NCBI GenBank assembly: GCA_016185505.1
Contig: JACPNL010000010.1
Location: forward strand, 1-55,825
Direction of reading: 5' to 3'
Length of the DNA stretch: 55,825 nucleotides
Source: Candidatus Yanofskyibacteriota bacterium
GTDB lineage: Bacteria > Patescibacteriota > Minisyncoccia > 2-02-FULL-40-12 > GWA2-44-9
In this document: positions 20,203 to 46,853 of the stretch, piece after piece
How the letters are laid out: every line of letters begins with the position of its first letter
Position numbering within the stretch: position 1 is the first letter of the stretch
Notes under the pieces: model-generated
What the model was told of the DNA's origin: nothing
Database searches by the model: none
Seen by the model: the letters and a program-made list of their open reading frames with translations, nothing else
Position numbers and translations under genes: made by a program

Positions 20203-21360
20203 TTACAATATTATTCCCCCTCCGAGAAGCTGCTGACCTTTATAAAATACGGCTGATTGACCGGGGGTTACGGCTGACTCTGGTTTTTTGAACACGATTT
20301 CGCCACTATTTTTTACAACCGCTTTAGACAACGGCGCCCTATAGCGCGTCCGCGCATCCAACTCCTCGCCCCTGTGGATAAACGACTTGCGAAGTCGTTT
20401 ATCCACAGGTTGAGCTATTGGATTTATCCAGTTTATAGCGGTTAATTTGAAATTTTGAGAGAGTAGATCTTTCTTCGAACCGACGTAAATGATGTTATTT
20501 TTGATATCTTTCCTAACAACAAAATAGGGGCCCTTGCCGTTCTTTATATCCAGACCGTGCCTTTGGCCGATGGTATAGTAGAACACGCCATCGTGTTGTC
20601 CAACAACACGCCCTGAGCGAGCAAAACGAGTCGAATGGGCAACATCCAACAAGATAATATTTCCGATCTTTGGCTTGATATAATTTTTTAAAAATTCTTT
20701 CATGTTTAACGGCCCGATGAAGCACACTCCCTGGCTATCTTTCTTGTCAGCCGTCGACAGGCCGAATTTTTTAGCCATTCTCCTAACCTCCGGTTTTGTA
20801 TAGTCACCAATCGGAAAGAAGCAATGTTTCAACTGCCTCTGGGTTAAGGTCCAGAGAAAATAGGATTGATCTTTGTTCTGGTCAACAGCTTTTAATAATT
20901 TATAGTCATTAATTTTTAATTTTTCATTTTTATTTTTTAATTTTCTTATGTAGTGTCCCGTCGCAATGTAATCCGCTCCTTCTTCCAATGCCTTCTCCAA
21001 AAATAGCCCGAACTTGATATGCTTATTGCACATTACATCCGGATTAGGCGTTTGACCGGTTTTATATTCTCGTATCATGTAGTCAGCCACTTCTTTTTTA
21101 TATTCTTGTGAAAAGTCCCACGTCAAAAGAGGAATGCCAATTTTTGCCGCTACCCGCATCGCGTCTTCTCGGTCTTGCTTCCAAAGACACCTGTGGATAA
21201 ACGACTTCGCAAGTCGTTTATCCACAGGTGGGCTCCATGGTTTCATAAAAACACCGGTTACATCGTAACCTTGTTTTTTCAACAGAGCAGCAGCCACAGA
21301 AGAGTCAACTCCTCCGGACATAGCAACATAAATCTTTTGTTTTTTAACTTGACGTTTCAT
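20203..21360 (-). CDS. mnmA: tRNA 2-thiouridylase MnmA
   Basis: AMSGGVDSSVAAALL, NPDVMCNKHIKFG, ATGHY, KDQSYFLWTL, KDSQGVCFIG, YTIGQRHGL; carries three in-frame palindromic insertions. Confidence 0.95.
   Translation of the reverse strand: MKRQVKKQKIYVAMSGGVDSSVAAALLKKQGYDVTGVFMKPWSPPVDKRLAKSFIHRCLWKQDREDAMRVAAKIGIPLLTWDFSQEYKKEVADYMIREYKTGQTPNPDVMCNKHIKFGLFLEKALEEGADYIATGHYIRKLKNKNEKLKINDYKLLKAVDQNKDQSYFLWTLTQRQLKHCFFPIGDYTKPEVRRMAKKFGLSTADKKDSQGVCFIGPLNMKEFLKNYIKPKIGNIILLDVAHSTRFARSGRVVGQHDGVFYYTIGQRHGLDIKNGKGPYFVVRKDIKNNIIYVGSKKDLLSQNFKLTAINWINPIAQPVDKRLRKSFIHRGEELDARTRYRAPLSKAVVKNSGEIVFKKPESAVTPGQSAVFYKGQQLLGGGIIL
20371..20409. repeat. 39-bp palindromic element in mnmA, loop inverted
   Basis: CCTGTGGATAAACGACTTGCGAAGTCGTTTATCCACAGG; read as PVDKRLRKSFIHR. 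Confidence 0.97.
21190..21228. repeat. 39-bp palindromic element in mnmA
   Basis: Identical to the alaS copy; read as PVDKRLAKSFIHR. Confidence 0.97.
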
Positions 21361-23357: not shown

Positions 23358-23370
23358 AGGAGTAAATTAA

Positions 23371-23580
23371 CATAATTAACCTAATTATTCTAATTAACCT
23401 AATTGACCTAAATAAATCCTCCCGATTTTGTCTGCTTCGCAGAAACAAAATCGAGGATCCTCGATATTCGCAAGCGAATATCGGGACAATGACCTAATAA
23501 CCAATGCCTGAAGGTTTTAGACATTAAAAATTAGGTATTATTTAGAATAATTAGAGCAATTAGAATAATTAGAATAATTT
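23371..23580. repeat. Intergenic inverted-arm repeat, copy 1 (CTAATTNNN units), containing the nested element 23420..23486
   Basis: CTAATTATT CTAATTAAC CTAATTGAC CTAAATAAA ... TTATTTAGAATAATTAGAGCAATTAGAATAATTAGAATAATT. Confidence 0.9.
23420..23486. repeat. 67-bp two-armed palindromic element
   Basis: TCCCGA[TTTTGTCTGCTTCGCAGAAACAAAA]TCGAGGATCCTCGA[TATTCGCAAGCGAATA]TCGGGA. Confidence 0.9.
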
Positions 23581-23581
23581 T

Positions 23582-24940
23582 CTATAGGTTCTTTTCTATC
23601 TCATCAGCCTTGTTCAAAACAGTTCTTGAATAATAGTTACATATGCTTGATGAGCACTTCGTGCTGCCTCCGATATACGCGCGGGCCGCGCCGCTTTCGG
23701 CTGTCCTTGTTTTTTTGTCTGCTCCTCCATTAGCTAATTTGATTGCCGAGGCCATAAAAGCATCCTCTATACTCCACGGATTTGGCGGATTGTGGCCGGT
23801 CAGGCGCGCTACTTCTTCCGCGTAAGCAAGCCACGTTGACGGTATGAATTGGGCCGGCCCCATCGCTCCGCCGCAACCGTAATTTGGTTCGCGGGATACC
23901 TTAACGGAGTTAGGATCAATGCCCAGTTGGCTGGTTATCTTTAGAAAGGCTGCTTCCTCCGTGGCCGCTCTCTGATAGTAATAAGTTCTCCTGTGCGGAT
24001 ACCAGATATCGCCTAAACGCCTGTAGCAAAGGACCATATCGTCCTGCCAATTGCCGGAGCCAACATTCTGTCCAAGACGGGACTCTATTTCCAAAATGGC
24101 AAGCAGGAACGCCGGCCTTATACCGGCTCTGATAGCGGCAAGTTGAGCATACCTTACCGCGTCTTCAGCGGTAATTCCGTGTTGGGTAAGAAAGGTCAGC
24201 TGTTCCCTGATTTTTTCTATATCTCTCTGCGATTTTTGGATCAGTTCCTGAAATTTTGATTCTTGCCCTTTTGTTTCTTTCAGTATGGTATCCTTTTCTT
24301 TTTTATTGATGTCCAAACTCCTTTTCTGAACCGCTTGGATCCCGATTAAATGTTCCAAGTCGGTCTTTTTCCCCTCCAACGAGATTTGGCGGTCTTCCAG
24401 ATCAGTTTTCAGTTGCCTTATGTTCTGGATGGCAATCTTTAGATTATCCTGGGTATTCGCAAGGTCATTAAGATAATTAAAAAAATCGGATAGATTTTCA
24501 TTATTGAATAAAATTTCAGTCAGCGTGATCTGATCGTTCTGATAGGCAATTTTTAGGTATTGAGCCAGAGCGTTTTTGTGTTTTTCTAGCGCTTGTTCCG
24601 ATTCGCCTATTTGTTTTTCTGTCTCCCCTATTTCTAATTTTGTTTTACTTACGGAGAGCTCAAGCCCCCTGATCTCAAGGGTTATTTGGTTAATCTTCGC
24701 GTTCAATTTCCCTATCTCGTTTTCAAGAGTTCTTGATTGTCCCCGAGTTATGTCTATCTGGCTTTGGTATTCATTAATCTGCCTCTGCAGCTCTTCTATC
24801 TGCCTCTGGCGTTCGGCTATCTCATCCTGCACGCCTGCTTTTCCATCCGATACAAAAATTGACAACGACAAAACTACCAAAAAAATAATCAGAAATTTTA
24901 TATATTTTTTCATTTCTTTACTACTCACTACATACCACAC
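23582..24940 (-). CDS. Coiled-coil secreted protein with C-terminal lytic transglycosylase-like domain
   Basis: Long coiled coil; C-terminus AILEIESRLGQNVG...GGAMGPAQFIPSTW. Confidence 0.85.
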   Translation of the reverse strand: MWYVVSSKEMKKYIKFLIIFLVVLSLSIFVSDGKAGVQDEIAERQRQIEELQRQINEYQSQIDITRGQSRTLENEIGKLNAKINQITLEIRGLELSVSKTKLEIGETEKQIGESEQALEKHKNALAQYLKIAYQNDQITLTEILFNNENLSDFFNYLNDLANTQDNLKIAIQNIRQLKTDLEDRQISLEGKKTDLEHLIGIQAVQKRSLDINKKEKDTILKETKGQESKFQELIQKSQRDIEKIREQLTFLTQHGITAEDAVRYAQLAAIRAGIRPAFLLAILEIESRLGQNVGSGNWQDDMVLCYRRLGDIWYPHRRTYYYQRAATEEAAFLKITSQLGIDPNSVKVSREPNYGCGGAMGPAQFIPSTWLAYAEEVARLTGHNPPNPWSIEDAFMASAIKLANGGADKKTRTAESGAARAYIGGSTKCSSSICNYYSRTVLNKADEIEKNL

Positions 24941-25004: not shown

Positions 25005-27044
25005 TTGATTATGATGTTACTCAATAAAAAAGCAACGCGTTTTTTAACTATTTTAATACTCTTGGTTATTTCTGGAGCTTATTTAACTTCAGATATTTCT
25101 GCCGCCCCAAACGAAGAATCAACCGTCATTCAAATAAACAATCAAAACCCCGGCCTGATAAGCAGCACTCCGGATATTTTTACCAACCTTGTTGCCTGCG
25201 CTCTGTGGCAAAAAGACAGCAACTGGGGACGAAACGGCAAACGAGGCAATCCTAACGATTTAAGCAATGACGCTATCGCCTATAAAAATTCTGCCAGCAT
25301 CGGCCTTGGCGGAGTGGATATTATTGATATTATAGGCGGCGTTGACGGACCCGACCCCCAGCCCGGTTGGATTGATGTCACCCAGCCGGGTGTTGCCGGC
25401 GTTTGGGTCAAGCCAGATCCCTGTAGCGGCGCCGGAGGGCCGCCCGGTCCGGGCGGTGGAGGCGGCGGTGTTCCAGTCGGCTCAAATCTTGGTATTAGCG
25501 GTGATACATTCACTATCGGCGGAGTTTCTAAATTTTTGGTTCTAGCTTCATATTTTGACGCCTTAGACGCTTCTAACCTCGGCGGCGATTTAGATTATCT
25601 AAAATCAAAAGGAATTGACGGGATAAGAATATTCCCGAACTGGTGGGATTTTGATCCGGATAGCCAGACCTTTAATCCCGGAAACACCCTAATGGACGTA
25701 AATGGGAATATTAGTAGTAGCCGCATGAGCGATCTGTTAAGCGTTTTAAGCGCGGCAAAGAGCAGAAACATGATAGTAGACGTAACTTTTGCCAGAGAAA
25801 CAGTGCCCGGACCATGCGACGGGGACAGAATCCCAAATGTAATGTGCATGTCCGAATTTATGGAAGGAACAGAATCGGCAGTAAGACAGATTAACTCGGC
25901 CGGATACGGCAATGTGTTTTTTGACATCCAAAACGAATTTGAACAATTCAACTTTTCAAATTCTGACTTAATAGCGATTAAAAATAGAATTAAAAGTGTA
26001 AATTCAAATTTTATAGTTTCCGCTTCAGAAGTCGGGGGCGGTTCCGGCATCGCGGTGAGCACCGGCATGGACATAGTGAACACTCACGAACCCAGAGACA
26101 ATTGGCCCTCAAGTGTCTCTAGCGTCGTCTCCTCTGCGACTTCAACCAGAAAGCCAATTTATCTTGGCGAGTCGGCCAGAGTTGGCGATGGAGCCGACAG
26201 TACTCAAGAGTTCATCACCGCTGTAAGCGATACAAAAAGAGCCGGCGGAGCGGCTTGGACTTTTCATAGCCGAGCTAATTTTAATCTGGACAACTCATCT
26301 TTACAGAACAATTATAACCAAATAGAGAAAGATTTTCTTGACCAGTTTTTGTCTTCATTAAACAGGGTCACTTGGGGCGCAACGGGAATAACGAGCGGAG
26401 GCGGAGGAACCCTACCACCCCCCGGTCCCGGCCCGGGGCCAGCGCCAGAACCATCCGGCCCTCCAATTATTAACGGCATTAGCCCGCAAAAAGCGGTCGT
26501 GGGAGAAACGGTAGAAATTATCGGTTCTAATCTGACAACATCCGTAAAACTAGAAAATCTTGAAAACGAAAATTTCTATACAATTACCGCGTTTGTTCGT
26601 CAAAATAATACGATTGCTTCCTTTCAAGTACCTGATCTTTCAGGCGGTGTTTACAAAATTTTTAGTTTAAGTCCGCAAGGAGACACGGAAAGTCCGCAAA
26701 ATCTTACAATCAGGTCAGGCGGCAATCCTTTCGGTCAGTCGGTCCAGCCCACCATCCCAACTGAAGGACTATTGGGATTCGGTCAACTTATAGCAATGAT
26801 CTTCACCTGGTCTCTCAATATTCTGGGCATTGTTGTTTTCGTAATGATATTCTTTGCCGGATTTCAGTGGTTCACCGCCGCCGGCAATACGGCAAAAGTA
26901 AATGAGGCCAAGTCCAGAATAACCAATGCGATCACCGGAGCTCTTATCCTTCTGGCGGCGTGGATAATATTATATACGATAAACCCTGATCTGGTCGGGG
27001 GCACGTTCACTTTGCCGGGGGCAGGGATAGAAAATAGTAATTAA
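25005..27044 (+). CDS. Secreted cellulase-like (TIM-barrel) protein with IPT/TIG-like domain and C-terminal TrbC/VirB2-like membrane module
   Basis: NVFFDIQNEFEQFN, PIYLGES; PPIINGISPQKAVVGETVEIIGSNL; FTWSLNILGIVVFVMIFFAGFQWFTAAGN...GALILLAAWIILYTINPDLV. Confidence 0.75.
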   Translation: MIMMLLNKKATRFLTILILLVISGAYLTSDISAAPNEESTVIQINNQNPGLISSTPDIFTNLVACALWQKDSNWGRNGKRGNPNDLSNDAIAYKNSASIGLGGVDIIDIIGGVDGPDPQPGWIDVTQPGVAGVWVKPDPCSGAGGPPGPGGGGGGVPVGSNLGISGDTFTIGGVSKFLVLASYFDALDASNLGGDLDYLKSKGIDGIRIFPNWWDFDPDSQTFNPGNTLMDVNGNISSSRMSDLLSVLSAAKSRNMIVDVTFARETVPGPCDGDRIPNVMCMSEFMEGTESAVRQINSAGYGNVFFDIQNEFEQFNFSNSDLIAIKNRIKSVNSNFIVSASEVGGGSGIAVSTGMDIVNTHEPRDNWPSSVSSVVSSATSTRKPIYLGESARVGDGADSTQEFITAVSDTKRAGGAAWTFHSRANFNLDNSSLQNNYNQIEKDFLDQFLSSLNRVTWGATGITSGGGGTLPPPGPGPGPAPEPSGPPIINGISPQKAVVGETVEIIGSNLTTSVKLENLENENFYTITAFVRQNNTIASFQVPDLSGGVYKIFSLSPQGDTESPQNLTIRSGGNPFGQSVQPTIPTEGLLGFGQLIAMIFTWSLNILGIVVFVMIFFAGFQWFTAAGNTAKVNEAKSRITNAITGALILLAAWIILYTINPDLVGGTFTLPGAGIENSN

Positions 27045-27070: not shown

Positions 27071-29221
27071 ATGAAAAAATATTTACCCATCGGCTTCTTT
27101 TCTCTCCTTTATCTTTTTAGTATCTCTCCTGTAGCCGTTGCAAATACTTTGCCCGCGCCTAACCACTCTATTTTTTTTGGTTACTATCATGCGGACGCTC
27201 AATACGGCGATTTTAAAAATGAAGTCAAAGATTACACGAACACTCAAATAATTATCGGCGATAGCTGGATCAGGCCGCCTGATGTCGCGGAATCGGATAT
27301 CCAGAAATTAAACGAAGCTCTTAGCGAAACCGCCGCTCTCGGCCAAAAAATTGTTCTTATTCCTTCGGGTGATTTAGATATTATACTGAATGCGGCTGCG
27401 CCATTTTGGGATAATGTCGCGTTTATTTATTTTGCCGATGAACCGAATTGGGATAAAGCCACAACCGAGGAAAATATCGGCTCATTTAAAAATAAAATTC
27501 GCAGGGCCGGGCTTTCTCAAAAAGAAATTGCCATAAATTATACTCCTGAACAGATACTTTCAGGAACGGGGTACCAAGCCGGTAATTTGAATATAGTCGG
27601 ATTTGAAGCATATGTTGACCCCGCGCAACAAAATAACCAGGATATCGTCGCTGACTTAAACGCGCAGATAGACAATCTCAAACAAAAAATAGGCAATAAA
27701 CAAATGTTCATCGTAATTCAGGCCTACGACAGAAATGGGGATTGGAAAAATATAACCTCACTCCAAAATATTCAAATACCGCCCTATCTGGCCGCTTATA
27801 ATGACGAACGTGTCATCGGATTGCTGATGTTCTCTTATGCCAGACCGGGAGGCACGCGGGATAACCCTATCTTAGCAGAACAGCATCGTTTGATCTGGCA
27901 AGCGATGCAAGGATTAACTGTTGACGTTGATCCTAAGAATATACCGGCCGTTGCGCCTACAAGCGTCTGGAGTCCTTCTCAAACCAATAACGGCTGGTGG
28001 CCGTCTTTGTCCCCGGACGGCAAATACGTTGCCTATGGTAATTTCGGCGAGAGCTGGGTAACTGACCTTTCAACTGGACAAAACTATGACCTTTCAAAGC
28101 CAGCAGGCCTGCCAGATGGAGCCCGTTGCAGGGGCGGACAATGGATAACATCAAGCAAGGTCACTTTTATTTGCGACAGCATTCCGGGGATAACTGGATT
28201 TTACCGATATGAAGCAGCCATTGGCGAGTGGATAGCGAGAAAAACCGATGACGACCCGAACAACGTAGTGAGCAGTATATTTGTCGCAAAAGACGGCCAC
28301 TGGGCATCTTTCTTAGCTCTAACCAGAATTATTAAAGACAACACAGTCCTTACCGATAACCAACCCGGAGGGGCAATAGCCATAAGCGGTGACTTGCTAG
28401 TAAACGCCTGCACCAACGAGAACCAGCAGATCTGCGTATGGGACAGGACTAACCTTTCTACGTCTTACGATGTCAGAACTCCCTTATTTGAAATGGATAT
28501 GGAAGATGGATATATTACTTATGGCGGATTTGGACCGATCCGAGGTATAGACCCGAGCGGAAAAGATATTGATCTGACGGCAACTGCCTGGAAACGAGAA
28601 GGATCGCCAAGAGTATTAATGGTCAACGGACAACCTTGGGTCGCCACTTATACTTGGGACGACACGTTGGGAGTTTCCAACGTATTGATCCGGCCGTGGG
28701 GAGAAAGAAAAAGTATCGTCTTGCAAATGGATGCGGCATCTTTAAGCGTGGTTTACACAAACGGAAACTTCATAGTTGCGGCTAATAACGATCGGGGCGG
28801 ATTAATAGTTCAAACCATCCCCGCGGATTCGCCAAGAGTTGATCTATCAGGCGGCTTGCCGTCAGAAACACCGGGGTTAAGTCCTGCAAACAAAAAGAGC
28901 TTTTCAAGTCCGGTTTTACCCGTTATCCCCACTGAAGGCCTCCCTTCTTTCGGCCAACTTATAGCCACGATCTTCACCTGGTCTCTCAATATTTTGGGCA
29001 TTGTGGTTTTTGTCATGATATTCTTTGCCGGATTTCAGTGGTTCACCGCCGCCGGCAATACGGCAAAAGTAAATGAGGCCAAGTCCAGAATAACCAATGC
29101 GATCACCGGAGCTCTTATACTTCTTGCGGCGTGGATAATATTATATACGATAAACCCTGATCTGGTCGGGGGAGTACTTACGCTACCGGGGGTAGGAACG
29201 GAAACAGAAACTGGAAATTAA
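27071..29221 (+). CDS. Secreted TIM-barrel-like and beta-propeller-like protein with the same C-terminal TrbC/VirB2-like module
   Basis: N-terminal signal; repeated PDGKYVAY-type blades; C-terminus near-identical to the upstream gene. Confidence 0.75.
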   Translation: MKKYLPIGFFSLLYLFSISPVAVANTLPAPNHSIFFGYYHADAQYGDFKNEVKDYTNTQIIIGDSWIRPPDVAESDIQKLNEALSETAALGQKIVLIPSGDLDIILNAAAPFWDNVAFIYFADEPNWDKATTEENIGSFKNKIRRAGLSQKEIAINYTPEQILSGTGYQAGNLNIVGFEAYVDPAQQNNQDIVADLNAQIDNLKQKIGNKQMFIVIQAYDRNGDWKNITSLQNIQIPPYLAAYNDERVIGLLMFSYARPGGTRDNPILAEQHRLIWQAMQGLTVDVDPKNIPAVAPTSVWSPSQTNNGWWPSLSPDGKYVAYGNFGESWVTDLSTGQNYDLSKPAGLPDGARCRGGQWITSSKVTFICDSIPGITGFYRYEAAIGEWIARKTDDDPNNVVSSIFVAKDGHWASFLALTRIIKDNTVLTDNQPGGAIAISGDLLVNACTNENQQICVWDRTNLSTSYDVRTPLFEMDMEDGYITYGGFGPIRGIDPSGKDIDLTATAWKREGSPRVLMVNGQPWVATYTWDDTLGVSNVLIRPWGERKSIVLQMDAASLSVVYTNGNFIVAANNDRGGLIVQTIPADSPRVDLSGGLPSETPGLSPANKKSFSSPVLPVIPTEGLPSFGQLIATIFTWSLNILGIVVFVMIFFAGFQWFTAAGNTAKVNEAKSRITNAITGALILLAAWIILYTINPDLVGGVLTLPGVGTETETGN

Positions 29222-29227
29222 GAAATG

Positions 29228-29258
29228 GACTTCGCAAGTCCGTTGGACTTGCGAAGTC
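29228..29258. repeat. Palindrome GACTTCGCAAGTCC GTT GGACTTGCGAAGTC
   Basis: 14-bp stem; same core as 43790..43820 and the 39-bp elements. Confidence 0.9.
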
Positions 29259-35467: not shown

Positions 35468-35517
35468 AAACAAACCGCCGTAAAACTAGCAATTGCTAGT
35501 TTTACGGCGGTTTGTTT
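35468..35517. repeat. 50-bp perfect loopless palindrome
   Basis: AAACAAACCGCCGTAAAACTAGCAATTGCTAGTTTTACGGCGGTTTGTTT. Confidence 0.9.
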
Positions 35518-36390
35518 CAAAATAGCCGATTTTCTGATATACTTTCACAAATAATGAGAAAAATATCACTATATTTAATACTACTAATAACGGCTCTTGG
35601 GGCCGGTATTTTTATTTCTTTCATTGCTTTAAGGTCAATAAATAGGCCCGCTATCCGCCCTAGCTCGCTACCGGGGTTTGAATCAGACCCAAACGTCCCG
35701 ACTTCGTCTCCTTCGGAGCAACGAAGTCGAGGATCCTCGATTTCTCAGCCCCGCCAAGGCGGGGGAGAAATCGGGACGACTCAAACTCCAACAAAGACAC
35801 CTGGTCCCAACACAATAATTTATGACGTCCCCTTTACTCCCCAAGCGCCTTTCAGCGAATGGAGTAATCCCAAACTAAGCAACGGCTGCGAGGAGGCCTC
35901 AGCTCTTATGGCTATGTCGTGGGTAAGAGGTACAACGTTCACGCAAGAAGAAGCAAGGCGAGAAATTATCGCCGTTTCCGACTACGAATTGGCGAATCAC
36001 GGCGTGTATCTGGATACATCTTCCCAAGATACCTTTGATTGGATATTCAAAGAATATTACGGATATAACAAGGTAGAACTTTTCTACGATATTTCCGTTG
36101 AAGACATTAAAAAAGAATTGCGCGGCGGCAATTTGGTCATCGTGCCCGTGAACGGGCAGGAACTGCATAACCCCTACTACACACAGCCCGGGCCTCTGCG
36201 CCACAAAGTCGTAATAATCGGATACGATCCGGACAACAAAGAATTCATCACCAATGACCCCGGCACCCGGCTCGGAAAGCAGTACCGCTACCCGGAACAA
36301 GTGTTATTCAACGCGATACACGACTATCTGACCGGCAATGACCTCCCGTTGCCGCCAAAGCGCACCGCGATGATAGTTGTAAAAAAATAA
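35512..36390 (+). CDS. C39-family peptidase (probable start 35554, MRKISLYLILL)
   Basis: YDVPFTPQAPFSEWSNPKLSNGCEEASALMAMSW...HKVVIIGYDPDNKEFITNDPG. Confidence 0.88.
   Translation: MFQNSRFSDILSQIMRKISLYLILLITALGAGIFISFIALRSINRPAIRPSSLPGFESDPNVPTSSPSEQRSRGSSISQPRQGGGEIGTTQTPTKTPGPNTIIYDVPFTPQAPFSEWSNPKLSNGCEEASALMAMSWVRGTTFTQEEARREIIAVSDYELANHGVYLDTSSQDTFDWIFKEYYGYNKVELFYDISVEDIKKELRGGNLVIVPVNGQELHNPYYTQPGPLRHKVVIIGYDPDNKEFITNDPGTRLGKQYRYPEQVLFNAIHDYLTGNDLPLPPKRTAMIVVKK
35694..35778. repeat. 85-bp two-armed palindromic element inside the C39 peptidase gene
   Basis: CGTCCCGACTTCGTCTCCTTCGGAGCAACGAAGTCGAGGATCCTCGATTTCTCAGCCCCGCCAAGGCGGGGGAGAAATCGGGACG. Confidence 0.92.
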
Positions 36391-41753: not shown

Positions 41754-42893
41754 CTAGCTCGTTAATTCGATGACTGCCAACTCTAACGGCAACTGCGGGA
41801 CGGGAGAGTGTTTTATCTCATTTCGAGCATTGGAAAAACTAACTATCATTTTAATCAACCGTTGGCTATCTACGCTTTGCCCCAGCGTTGAGATATTTTT
41901 TGTTTCCTCGTCGTTCATACCGCTTACGGAAGCAAGCACGGCCGGATTTATTTTTGCCATCAGAACGTTTCTTAGATACTCCACCAAATTGCCGGTGAAA
42001 TTTTCCATATCAGCCCCGGACATATGAATTTTTTGGATAACTTCCATAGAGCCAACCCTGTCATTATTTAAAAGACGGCCAAGAAATTCTGGGTAATATT
42101 TATACGAAACCAAACTCAATATTTCGTTCACGTCTTCAGCGGAAACCTCTTTGTTCGGATCAACGGAAGCATGGATTTTAGTCAGAGCCACTTCCGCGTC
42201 ACGCAACGCTCCGTCGGCAGACATGGCTATGGTTTTTATCGCTTCGTCATTTATCTTAATCCCCTCTTTACCGGCCATCATTTTTAATTTTTCAGAAATT
42301 TGGCCATGATTTAACCGTTTGAAATCAAATCTTTGCACACGGGATAATACCGTCGGCAATATCTTGTGCGGTTCGGTCGTAGCAAGAATAAAAATAACAT
42401 GCGCCGGCGGTTCTTCAAGCGTTTTTAATAAAGCGTTAAAAGCAGATTTTGAAAGCATGTGAACCTCGTCAATGAGAAATATTTTGTATCCCCCGCCCGG
42501 CGCGGCAACCATCGCCGAATCGTTCAGCTCCCGGATATCATCAACCCCCGTCCGCGAAGCGGCGTCTATCTCAATGAGGTCAAGTGAATTCCCCTGACTC
42601 GCGGCAAGACAAAAATGGCAGTTATCACACGGCTCCGTTAACACAGCTTCCGGCCTTCGGCTATCTGCTTTCAGCTGATTGCCGATTACTGGTTGCTGGT
42701 TGCGACGATAGTCACAGTTAAGCGCTTTAGCAAAAATACGGGCCAAAGACGTTTTGCCGGTCCCTCGAGAACCGGTGAATAAATAAGCGTGGCCCACCCG
42801 GCCGCTCTCTAATGCTCCTTGCAGGGTCTTTACTACATGCTCTTGACCCACTATTTCCGAGAATTTTTGCGGACGATACTTACGATATAACAT
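41754..42893 (-). CDS. dnaX: DNA polymerase III gamma/tau subunit
   Basis: MLYRKYRPQKFSEIVGQEHVVKTL, GSRGTGKTSLARIFAKALNC, CDNCHFC, DEVHMLSKSAFNALLKTLEEPP. Confidence 0.97.
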   Translation of the reverse strand: MLYRKYRPQKFSEIVGQEHVVKTLQGALESGRVGHAYLFTGSRGTGKTSLARIFAKALNCDYRRNQQPVIGNQLKADSRRPEAVLTEPCDNCHFCLAASQGNSLDLIEIDAASRTGVDDIRELNDSAMVAAPGGGYKIFLIDEVHMLSKSAFNALLKTLEEPPAHVIFILATTEPHKILPTVLSRVQRFDFKRLNHGQISEKLKMMAGKEGIKINDEAIKTIAMSADGALRDAEVALTKIHASVDPNKEVSAEDVNEILSLVSYKYYPEFLGRLLNNDRVGSMEVIQKIHMSGADMENFTGNLVEYLRNVLMAKINPAVLASVSGMNDEETKNISTLGQSVDSQRLIKMIVSFSNARNEIKHSPVPQLPLELAVIELTS

Positions 42894-42898
42894 AAAAA

Positions 42899-43043
42899 AT
42901 TAACCTAATTATTCTAATTGCTCTAATTGACCTAAATAAACCCTAATGACCGAATAACTAATGACCAAAGGTTTGAGGATTAGACATTAGAAATTGTGAT
43001 TTATTTAGAATAATTAGAATAATTAGGTTAATTAGAATAATTT
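42899..43043. repeat. Intergenic inverted-arm repeat, copy 2 (CTAATTNNN units)
   Basis: CCTAATTATTCTAATTGCTCTAATTGACCTAAATAAA ... TTTATTTAGAATAATTAGAATAATTAGGTTAATTAGAATAATT. Confidence 0.9.
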
Positions 43044-43695
43044 ATTTTCGGAATACTGTCATCTTGACTCCTATAAAACTTACCACTAACGCCGCTGCCG
43101 AACCGGCGATTCCGCCGGCATTGGCCCACTGATCACTGCTCAAGTCGAACATTGGATCTAAAAAATTTACTAAACCAGAAGCTATTCCAATATTCACAAG
43201 TCCGGCGATAATGTAAGCAGTAAAAAATTTTCCCAACTCTGCGGCGTTAATTTTGTTTTCCTCGCCAGAGGCGTTAACGCCCACCAGAGGCGGGTCAACC
43301 TCTGGTTGAGAAAATACCCAGAATTTGTTCCAAAAATAACTGTGAAATGTTGCTATAATAAACGCCGACGCGACGAAAATTGAATACCATAATCCCTTAT
43401 TTATATCCGACCAAGATATTAAAACATTCAAAATCCCAAAATATACCGCCGCGTTGGTAAAACCAACAGCAGAAAATTTGCCGAACTGACCGAAGAATGC
43501 CAGCCACCGCCCCAAAAAATATCCAAGATTTACCCCCAGTATCCAAAGAATGGGAACAAAAATAATCAACCAAGCATAAGATACACTGACAAATTCCGGC
43601 AATTCAAGAAAAACAAATATCCGCCACGCGATCAAACCGGTTATGAGTCCGGTTATTACTGAAAAATAAAAATCTTTGCGAGAAAATTGATGCAC
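43042..43695 (-). CDS. GtrA-like membrane protein
   Basis: Four TM segments; KFSAVGFTNAAVYFGILNVLI, SYFWNKFWVF. Confidence 0.75.
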   Translation of the reverse strand: MHQFSRKDFYFSVITGLITGLIAWRIFVFLELPEFVSVSYAWLIIFVPILWILGVNLGYFLGRWLAFFGQFGKFSAVGFTNAAVYFGILNVLISWSDINKGLWYSIFVASAFIIATFHSYFWNKFWVFSQPEVDPPLVGVNASGEENKINAAELGKFFTAYIIAGLVNIGIASGLVNFLDPMFDLSSDQWANAGGIAGSAAALVVSFIGVKMTVFRK

Positions 43696-43789: not shown

Positions 43790-43820
43790 GACTTCGCAAG
43801 TCCGACGGACTTGCGAAGTC
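43790..43820. repeat. Palindrome GACTTCGCAAGTCC GAC GGACTTGCGAAGTC
   Basis: 14-bp stem; near-identical to 29228..29258. Confidence 0.9.
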
Positions 43821-46266: not shown

Positions 46267-46271
46267 GGTAA

Positions 46272-46420
46272 AATTAAATTATTCTAATTTCTAATTAACC
46301 TAATTGACCTAAATAAATCCCAATGACCTAATGCCTAAAAACTTATTTCGCTATTTGGGTATTAGACATTAGTCATTATTTAGAATAATTAGAGCAATTA
46401 GAATAATTAGGTCAATTTTT
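46272..46420. repeat. Intergenic inverted-arm repeat, copy 3 (empty site for the 67-bp element)
   Basis: AACCTAATTGACCTAAATAAATCC|CAATGACCTAAT... TTATTTAGAATAATTAGAGCAATTAGAATAATTAGGTCAATT. Confidence 0.9.
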
Positions 46421-46853
46421 CCAGTTTCTTTCTTTCCACTAACATATTATAAAGTTCATCCACCAAAACATCATGGAACGCGTCTATGAGAGCGGGATTA
46501 TTAGACCTTACGGCTTCTTTGACGCCGTCGTCCAGTCCTTTATTGAAAACCATATTAATAAGCGCCTGAACTTTTTCTTTCAACTCCGGCAAAACATAAC
46601 TTAACGCGCTGTCGTCAAGTCCAACTTGGCCGTCGTCCTGTTGCGGCCGAGTCGAACTGGGCTGGGGCTTGGTTGGCGACGGTTGATACTGTGGGATTTG
46701 CTGTTGAATTTTTTCTCCGATAATTTCACGCAGGGTTTCTTTTTCGTGTGGCGATTCCGGCGCCACCTCGCCATGTCCCAAAGCCGCGCGCTTTTCGGCG
46801 ATCTGTTGTTCCAGTTGCGCTATCTCTTGTTCAATAGTCGGCTGATTTTCCAT
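46407..46853 (-). CDS. Hypothetical protein
   Basis: 148-aa ORF upstream of and co-oriented with the ATPase. Confidence 0.75.
   Translation of the reverse strand: MENQPTIEQEIAQLEQQIAEKRAALGHGEVAPESPHEKETLREIIGEKIQQQIPQYQPSPTKPQPSSTRPQQDDGQVGLDDSALSYVLPELKEKVQALINMVFNKGLDDGVKEAVRSNNPALIDAFHDVLVDELYNMLVERKKLEKLT

Follow-up and report, generated by a model that had tools for sequence, protein, structure and literature searches.

The 67-nt insert at 23420–23486 of the window (the whole stretch of DNA analysed, 55,825 nt) can be read, with a probability of roughly 70%, as a non-autonomous, MITE-like derivative of a small mobile or homing element that has a GIY-YIG nuclease as its only enzyme, as judged from sequence comparison. 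The parent element is apparently common to Patescibacteria and Bacteroidota and apparently undescribed; our search of the open-access literature, with most subscription papers outside it, returned no description of GIY-YIG elements of such a kind. We put the chances at about even that these elements form a new bacterial class with hairpin or inverted-repeat ends and GIY-YIG as the sole enzyme. This class would comprise several end classes, each with one nuclease clade, would invade conserved genes and tRNAs by means of a recoded start, and would leave swarms of gene-less hairpin doublets, some of them translated within essential proteins, in Patescibacteria and Bacteroidota.

Structure and junctions of the insert

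Alignment of copies 1, 2, and 3 of the host repeat (Table 1) bore out the original prediction of a precise 67-bp insertion with a matching empty site. The filled junction of copy 1, which is intergenic, reads AAATAAATCC/TCCCGA..TCGGGA/CAATGACC (a slash marks the insertion point here and below), while the empty junction reads AAATAAATCCCAATGACC in copy 3 and AAATAAACCC/TAATGACC in copy 2. The boundary of the insert cannot be slid in either direction and a target-site duplication is absent, in agreement with what had been proposed. The insert had also been called palindromic; it consists of two inverted hairpins and not of one palindrome. The feet of the hairpins are TCCCGA..TCGAGGA and TCCTCGA..TCGGGA, so that both monomers have the form TCCCGA-stem-TCGAGGA on opposite strands, with the common centre TCGAGGATCCTCGA. 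Folding of the 67 nt gave a z-score of -6.7, and the central 14-mer has a chance expectation of 0.15 occurrences in the window with at most two mismatches. The insert thus has the make-up of the TCCCGA doublet family (TCCCGA..TCGAGGATCCTCGA..TCGGGA, with both halves forming hairpins). The 38-nt long monomer is also present in identical form at C19:2382 of the same genome, where it is paired with a different hairpin. No T-tract accompanies the copy at 23420, and a terminator at this position was rejected for that reason.

Table 1. Positions of the insert, its host repeats, and related features in the window
Feature	Position	Strand	Description
Doublet element, 67 nt	23420..23486	.	Two inverted TCCCGA..TCGAGGA hairpin monomers
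Long hairpin monomer, TCCCGATTTTGT-CTGCTTCGCAG-AA-ACAAAATCGAGGA	23420..23457	+	Stem, asymmetric 2-nt bulge, second stem
Short hairpin monomer	23458..23486	-	Reverse strand reads TCCCGATATTCGCTTGCGAATATCGAGGA
Invariant centre TCGAGGATCCTCGA	23451..23464	.	
Host palindromic repeat (~150 bp), interrupted by the doublet	23363..23585	.	One of 32 copies in 559 kb
Host repeat copy 2, empty	42891..43048	.	
Host repeat copy 3, empty	46270..46425	.	Empty site of the original prediction
Second doublet of the window, 81 nt	35696..35776	.	Same family; in frame in a peptidase ORF
ORF of 296 aa, Peptidase_C39_2 domain	35500..36390	+	Reads through the doublet at 35696-35776
Empty REP hairpin CCTGTGGATAAACGACTTG/CGAAGTCGTTTATCCACAGG	20370..20413	+	Doublet at the slash in C1, C3, and C5

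Filled and empty copies of the host repeat

The genome to which the window belongs (G000) is a 681-kb assembly of 32 contigs, 559 kb of which were covered in counting the host repeat. The search for further filled and empty copies in this genome was fruitful: the repeat occurs 32 times, uninterrupted at this junction in 30 copies and filled in two. The second filled copy (C25:26495-26561) carries the same 67 nt without any difference, in a host that shares 78.7% identity with the host in the window, as against 91.7% with an empty copy located 1 kb off. Comparison of the two filled hosts revealed that mismatches set in within about 5 nt of the right end of the insert and within about 10 nt of its left end. 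The simplest reading is that one unit arrived twice at one site, the alternative being a very short gene conversion. Movement as a unit, as originally claimed, finds support in these 30 empty and two filled hosts and in the unlikeness of the hosts around an identical insert; the claim is further strengthened by insertion at one exact point into the loops of an unrelated hairpin repeat (REP), by an insertion in Tgt, and by feet that are fixed across phyla, all described below.

The same host repeat also accommodates a second insertion family, a two-hairpin insert AGCCGACGTTATCAGTCGGCTCTCCGACTGATAACGTCGGAG that lies at CTAA/TTGACC in five copies (C1:42008, C5:62, C7:37476, C21:8942, and C26:17248), a point that differs from the insertion point of the doublet.

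The doublet family and its distribution

The monomer pattern occurs 57 times in G000, as against no occurrence of the reversed control, and the genome holds 18 exact doublets, the most of any genome read. In all of these genomes, 133 distinct sites were collected, with doublets of 48–94 nt. Their 266 hairpins comprise 242 distinct sequences, and the outer stem has at least seven pairs in 88% of them. The feet and the centre are constant, the feet also across phyla, and the stems vary freely; since nearly all copies differ in the stem, copying from one master is not directly visible, a point against our preferred reading. Analysis of the junctions revealed G at position -1 or C at position +1 in 122 of the 133 sites, compared with about 35% expected from the composition of the flanks, and this bias extends to a single base, which limits its weight for our reading. 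Such a bias points to an enzyme that has a site preference. The copy at 23420, with C at +1 (AAATAAATCC/CAATG), fits the same rule (G/N or N/C).

Exact doublets were detected in 13 of 75 relatives and in three of 192 genomes sampled over the phylum; all three are from the window's own class, and none of the 192 outside this class has one. Among the matches listed from named genomes, doublets occur in many Parcubacteria-type lineages, in Bacteroidota, and in Chlorobiota. This patchy distribution suggests that the doublets spread horizontally. No exact doublet matched in IMG/VR, and a viral origin was rejected on this basis. The doublets of three genomes (L199:3390, L215:2345, and L219:3975) lie at the common sequence AAAGAAAAACTTG/AAA.

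Doublets read in frame inside genes

Within ORFs of at least 150 aa lie 24 of the 133 sites, and the doublet length is divisible by three in 21 of these 24, as against 45 of the 109 sites elsewhere (p = 3e-5). The hosts confirmed by Pfam are FolD, Tgt, a Mur ligase, Dus, an RsmA-type methyltransferase, phenylalanyl-tRNA synthetase, and an exonuclease; SecA, UvrA, and IleRS were assigned by reading the sequence. Some of the doublet-bearing ORFs may be due to chance. In FolD, the doublet is located at the same place in two families. The Tgt doublet adds 28 aa in frame and is missing from the other aligned orthologs, those of both same-genus genomes included, which indicates that at least this insertion is derived. 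The peptidase ORF of the window provides a further in-frame example (Table 1).

Doublets in REP loops and the Y1 transposase

The empty REP hairpin of the window has doublet-bearing counterparts elsewhere in the genome (Table 1); in C11 the same site carries a doublet and is read on the other strand. In this hairpin, which reads CCTGTGGATAAACGACTTGCGAAGTCGTTTATCCACAGG, the doublet lies exactly between TTG and CGAA in several places. These REP-borne doublets look like one insertion that was multiplied as a composite. The REP family itself, CCTGTGGA..TCCACAGG with variable stems, is found in the window at 2699-2742, 20370-20413, and 21189-21232, as well as in L031 and L032, and within this genus it occurs in frame in tgt (PVDKRLAKSFIHR).

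The original prediction had named a TnpA_REP/Y1-type transposase as a candidate factor, and this part failed. Elsewhere in the genome, G000 has two Y1_Tnp (RAYT-like) genes, both placed between TGTGGA/TCCACA hairpins related to the CCTGTGGA..TCCACAGG REP and not between TCCCGA/TCGAGGA hairpins. Y1 genes are present in seven of 13 doublet-bearing and 33 of 62 doublet-free genomes (p = 1), their copy number shows no association either (p = 0.80), and the near-complete doublet-bearing genomes G012 and G021 have no Y1 gene. The doublet feet, TCCCGA and TCGAGGA, contain neither a GTAG nor a CGTC tag. Y1/RAYT as the mobiliser was rejected in view of the flanking hairpins and the absent association.

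Displaced gene starts before intact genes

For 42 of 144 doublets, the empty junction recurred at most 2.5 kb away, in some cases as low-complexity tandem repeats. On inspection, many of these cases proved to be 5' parts of tRNAs that are followed by an intact tRNA. In protein genes, start fragments of EF-G directly precede the intact gene in G000 (C26:17494) and in Sungbacteria (L249), and topA is arranged likewise in L176. Comparison of the fragments with the intact starts in these three cases revealed 37 synonymous and two non-synonymous codon differences. Differences that are almost purely synonymous indicate that the fragment was the working gene start until recently and that the new start has been strongly recoded. 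The EF-G fragment and the intact start are about equally distant from the relatives. The in-frame and intergenic doublets do not have this arrangement of displaced fragments, which speaks against our preferred reading.

In three tRNA cases (L149:923, L211:3649, and L205:3615), a 5' copy precedes the intact tRNA; the D-arm of this copy contains the doublet, and a hairpin, TCCCGC..GCGGGA or CCCCGAC..GTCGGGG, takes the place of its anticodon arm.

GIY-YIG elements with the same ends

In five loci (L348, L352, L353, L362, and L393), a doublet harbours a GIY-YIG ORF within its first hairpin; the foot precedes the GIY domain by 22–29 nt and the centre follows it by 11–14 nt. The ends and the centre are exact in all of these except L352, the foot of which is CCCCGA. 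L375 is a GIY-YIG element that lies in a tRNA and has a variant centre; a seventh example, L414, is broken. The four full elements measured span 299–323 nt and encode a GIY-YIG ORF of 80–97 aa. Several Bacteroidota and Patescibacteria genomes show the order of tRNA 5' fragment, doublet, small GIY-YIG ORF, and intact tRNA; at some tRNAs the linked GIY gene has hairpins of another kind or lacks them, which counts against the reading that we favour. A doublet and a full element from different genomes also share a site: L206 has a doublet at TGTCAGAATTG/CAAAAAC and L393 a GIY element at the matching point CTGTCAAAACTG/CAAAAAAG, the corresponding point of one zinc-ribbon gene, and the intact gene follows in both.

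Inverted repeats of at least 11 nt frame 28 of 99 GIY genes, compared with 1.9% in a mispaired control, and they fall into several end classes. A tree of 95 nucleases, built on only 78 columns, places the classes ATCCCGTTAG and ACCCC in one group each and five of the six TCCCGA elements in one group; on the same 78 columns, the end-class labels require four changes, as against 16.6 when shuffled. End types and nuclease clades therefore co-segregate, and enzyme and ends travel together. Doublet-positive relatives have 5.25 GIY copies and doublet-negative relatives 2.65 (p = 0.002, with the own genome left out). In the 559 of 681 kb of G000 that were read, no small GIY-YIG gene was found, the one present being of UvrC length; the small gene may have been lost or may lie in unassembled sequence. 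This lack in the genome richest in doublets is the chief weak point of our reading; for a non-autonomous copy, a nuclease in the same genome would be supportive evidence and no defining trait.

Other end classes were also observed. GIY-YIG genes are framed by ATCCCGTTAGAGACAG-type inverted repeats in L388, L399, and L404 and further in L371, L373, L374, L384, L386, L396, L397, and L406. At the end of L399 and L404 stands ..CGGGATGA, from which the gene that follows (RNase H-like and RecR-like) appears to take its start codon. In L401, L409, L405, L391, L380, and L392, the inverted repeats start from ACCCC(G/A)CACCT or similar.

Proposed mechanism and alternative explanations

A full element consists of the foot TCCCGA, half a stem, the GIY-YIG ORF, the other half of the stem, TCGAGGATCCTCGA, a second hairpin, and the foot TCGGGA; the gene-less doublet has the same feet and centre, separated by hairpins. 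In the mechanism that we propose, the nuclease would cleave a target, the insertion would land beside G (G/N or N/C), and the element would be copied or joined into the cut during repair, leaving no target-site duplication. Transposition of the gene-less copies would involve mobilisation in trans by the nuclease. Copies would persist where the harm is small, namely in intergenic repeats (as at 23420), in hairpin loops, at in-frame positions of proteins, and at the starts of tRNAs and genes. In the last case, a recoded gene start would come with the unit; the gene behind it would thereby stay intact and escape further cutting, and such recoding could act as immunity. Homology arms for further homing would be provided by the gene body together with the displaced 5' fragment.

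The possibility that the 67 nt are ancestral and were lost from copies 2 and 3 by deletion draws on the fact that a precise junction by itself looks alike for insertion and deletion. It appears extremely improbable, however, given the 30 of 32 host copies without the insert at the same point, the empty near-twin of the filled C25 copy, the lack of the doublet in the other aligned Tgt orthologs, and the existence of REP loops both empty and filled; deletion rather than insertion was rejected on the 30:2 host repeats and the Tgt orthologs. A selected functional RNA or bidirectional terminator, on which GIY-YIG elements merely land, would account for strong hairpins with compensating stem changes and for copies between genes. 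We consider this quite improbable, because copies also lie in frame in essential ORFs, in tRNA fragments, and in repeat loops, there is no conserved neighbour, the 23420 copy ends in no T-tract, the GIY gene keeps its fixed distances from foot and centre in independent targets, and the GIY clade follows the end type.

Little credence can likewise be given to a REP-like element whose hairpin DNA is mobilised by a Y1 (TnpA_REP/RAYT) transposase. The inverted hairpin pairs do look like REP doublets, the genome holds two Y1_Tnp genes, and REPs are present and act as hosts, but both Y1 genes are flanked by hairpins of the REP type, Y1 is equally frequent with and without doublets and absent from the doublet-bearing genomes G012 and G021, and the REP sequence is kept whereas the doublet stems are not. 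It is also unlikely that no dedicated enzyme is involved, with hairpins arising, varying, and spreading by template switching and repeat recombination and the identical filled copies reflecting gene conversion between host repeats. Stems that diversify with pairing kept, the multiplied composites (REP or host repeat plus doublet), and the location of hairpins in hairpin loops would fit such an origin; the feet fixed in two phyla, the exact ends at independent sites, the strong base bias at the junction, and an identical insert in hosts only 79% alike, differing within about 5–10 nt of it, argue against it. A GIY-YIG-derived doublet remains our preferred reading. Units of 67–323 nt seem too short for an intein or for a group I intron bearing a nuclease gene.

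Comparison with known systems

MITEs of DNA transposons are gene-less and share terminal sequences with a larger coding element. The doublet resembles them in sharing its ends with a larger coding element and differs from the MITEs of DDE transposons in having neither a target-site duplication nor a DDE or Y1 transposase. Mobile short hairpin elements are also found in organelle genomes, an example being the double-hairpin elements of fungal mtDNA. For the Rickettsia palindromic elements (RPE), we know of no nuclease-bearing partner. RPE are likewise short palindromic repeats, inserted between genes and, in frame, within conserved protein genes; compared by description, they are ~150 bp long and said to encode a conserved peptide, whereas the doublets measure 48–94 nt and their stems and peptides vary (PMC10969869). 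The hairpin elements of sponge mtDNA (PMC2800124) and the mobile palindromes of yeast mtDNA (PMC4478555) are similar as mobile short hairpins and different in sequence and host.

The nearest working analogue is the mORF elements of fungal mitochondria, described in atp6 of Allomyces and in atp6, atp9, cox2, and nad3 of Glomus, in which a homing-type endonuclease ORF in a conserved gene comes with a synonymously diverged part-copy, the native part is displaced, and the hybrid gene works (PMC3630166). The combination of a nuclease ORF, a synonymously diverged gene part, and a displaced native part is shared; mORF elements, however, replace the 3' end of the gene and those described here the 5' end, fixed hairpin feet and short gene-less copies are not described there (PMC3630166), and the present elements are bacterial and also enter tRNAs. 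REP/REPIN sequences with RAYT similarly combine small hairpins, inverted pairs, and a cognate enzyme gene between the same hairpins, but their enzyme is Y1 rather than GIY-YIG, and the doublet feet are neither GTAG nor CGTC (PMC3733652, PMC3116915). The doublet stems, moreover, are not conserved, and REPs proper coexist with the doublets and serve as their targets.

In CPR rRNA genes, non-intron insertions coding for GIY-YIG proteins have been reported, together with uncharacterised short (<200 bp) insertions that lie mostly at the tops or bases of rRNA stem-loops; the passages concerned draw no link between the GIY-coding and the ORF-less insertions (PMC11270868). By likeness to these descriptions, either kind of insertion may belong with the elements presented here. 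If correct, our reading may account for two features of Patescibacteria, their many GIY-YIG genes and the short, uncharacterised insertions found in rRNA genes, and with a nuclease of <100 residues the model is directly testable.

Other repeats in the window

A 256-nt direct repeat with 91% identity (26778-27033 and 28949-29204) lies inside two neighbouring long ORFs. Another palindromic repeat family, a hairpin of the form GACTTCGCAAGTCCG..CGGACTTGCGAAGTC, is represented by two copies at 29228-29258 and 43790-43820.
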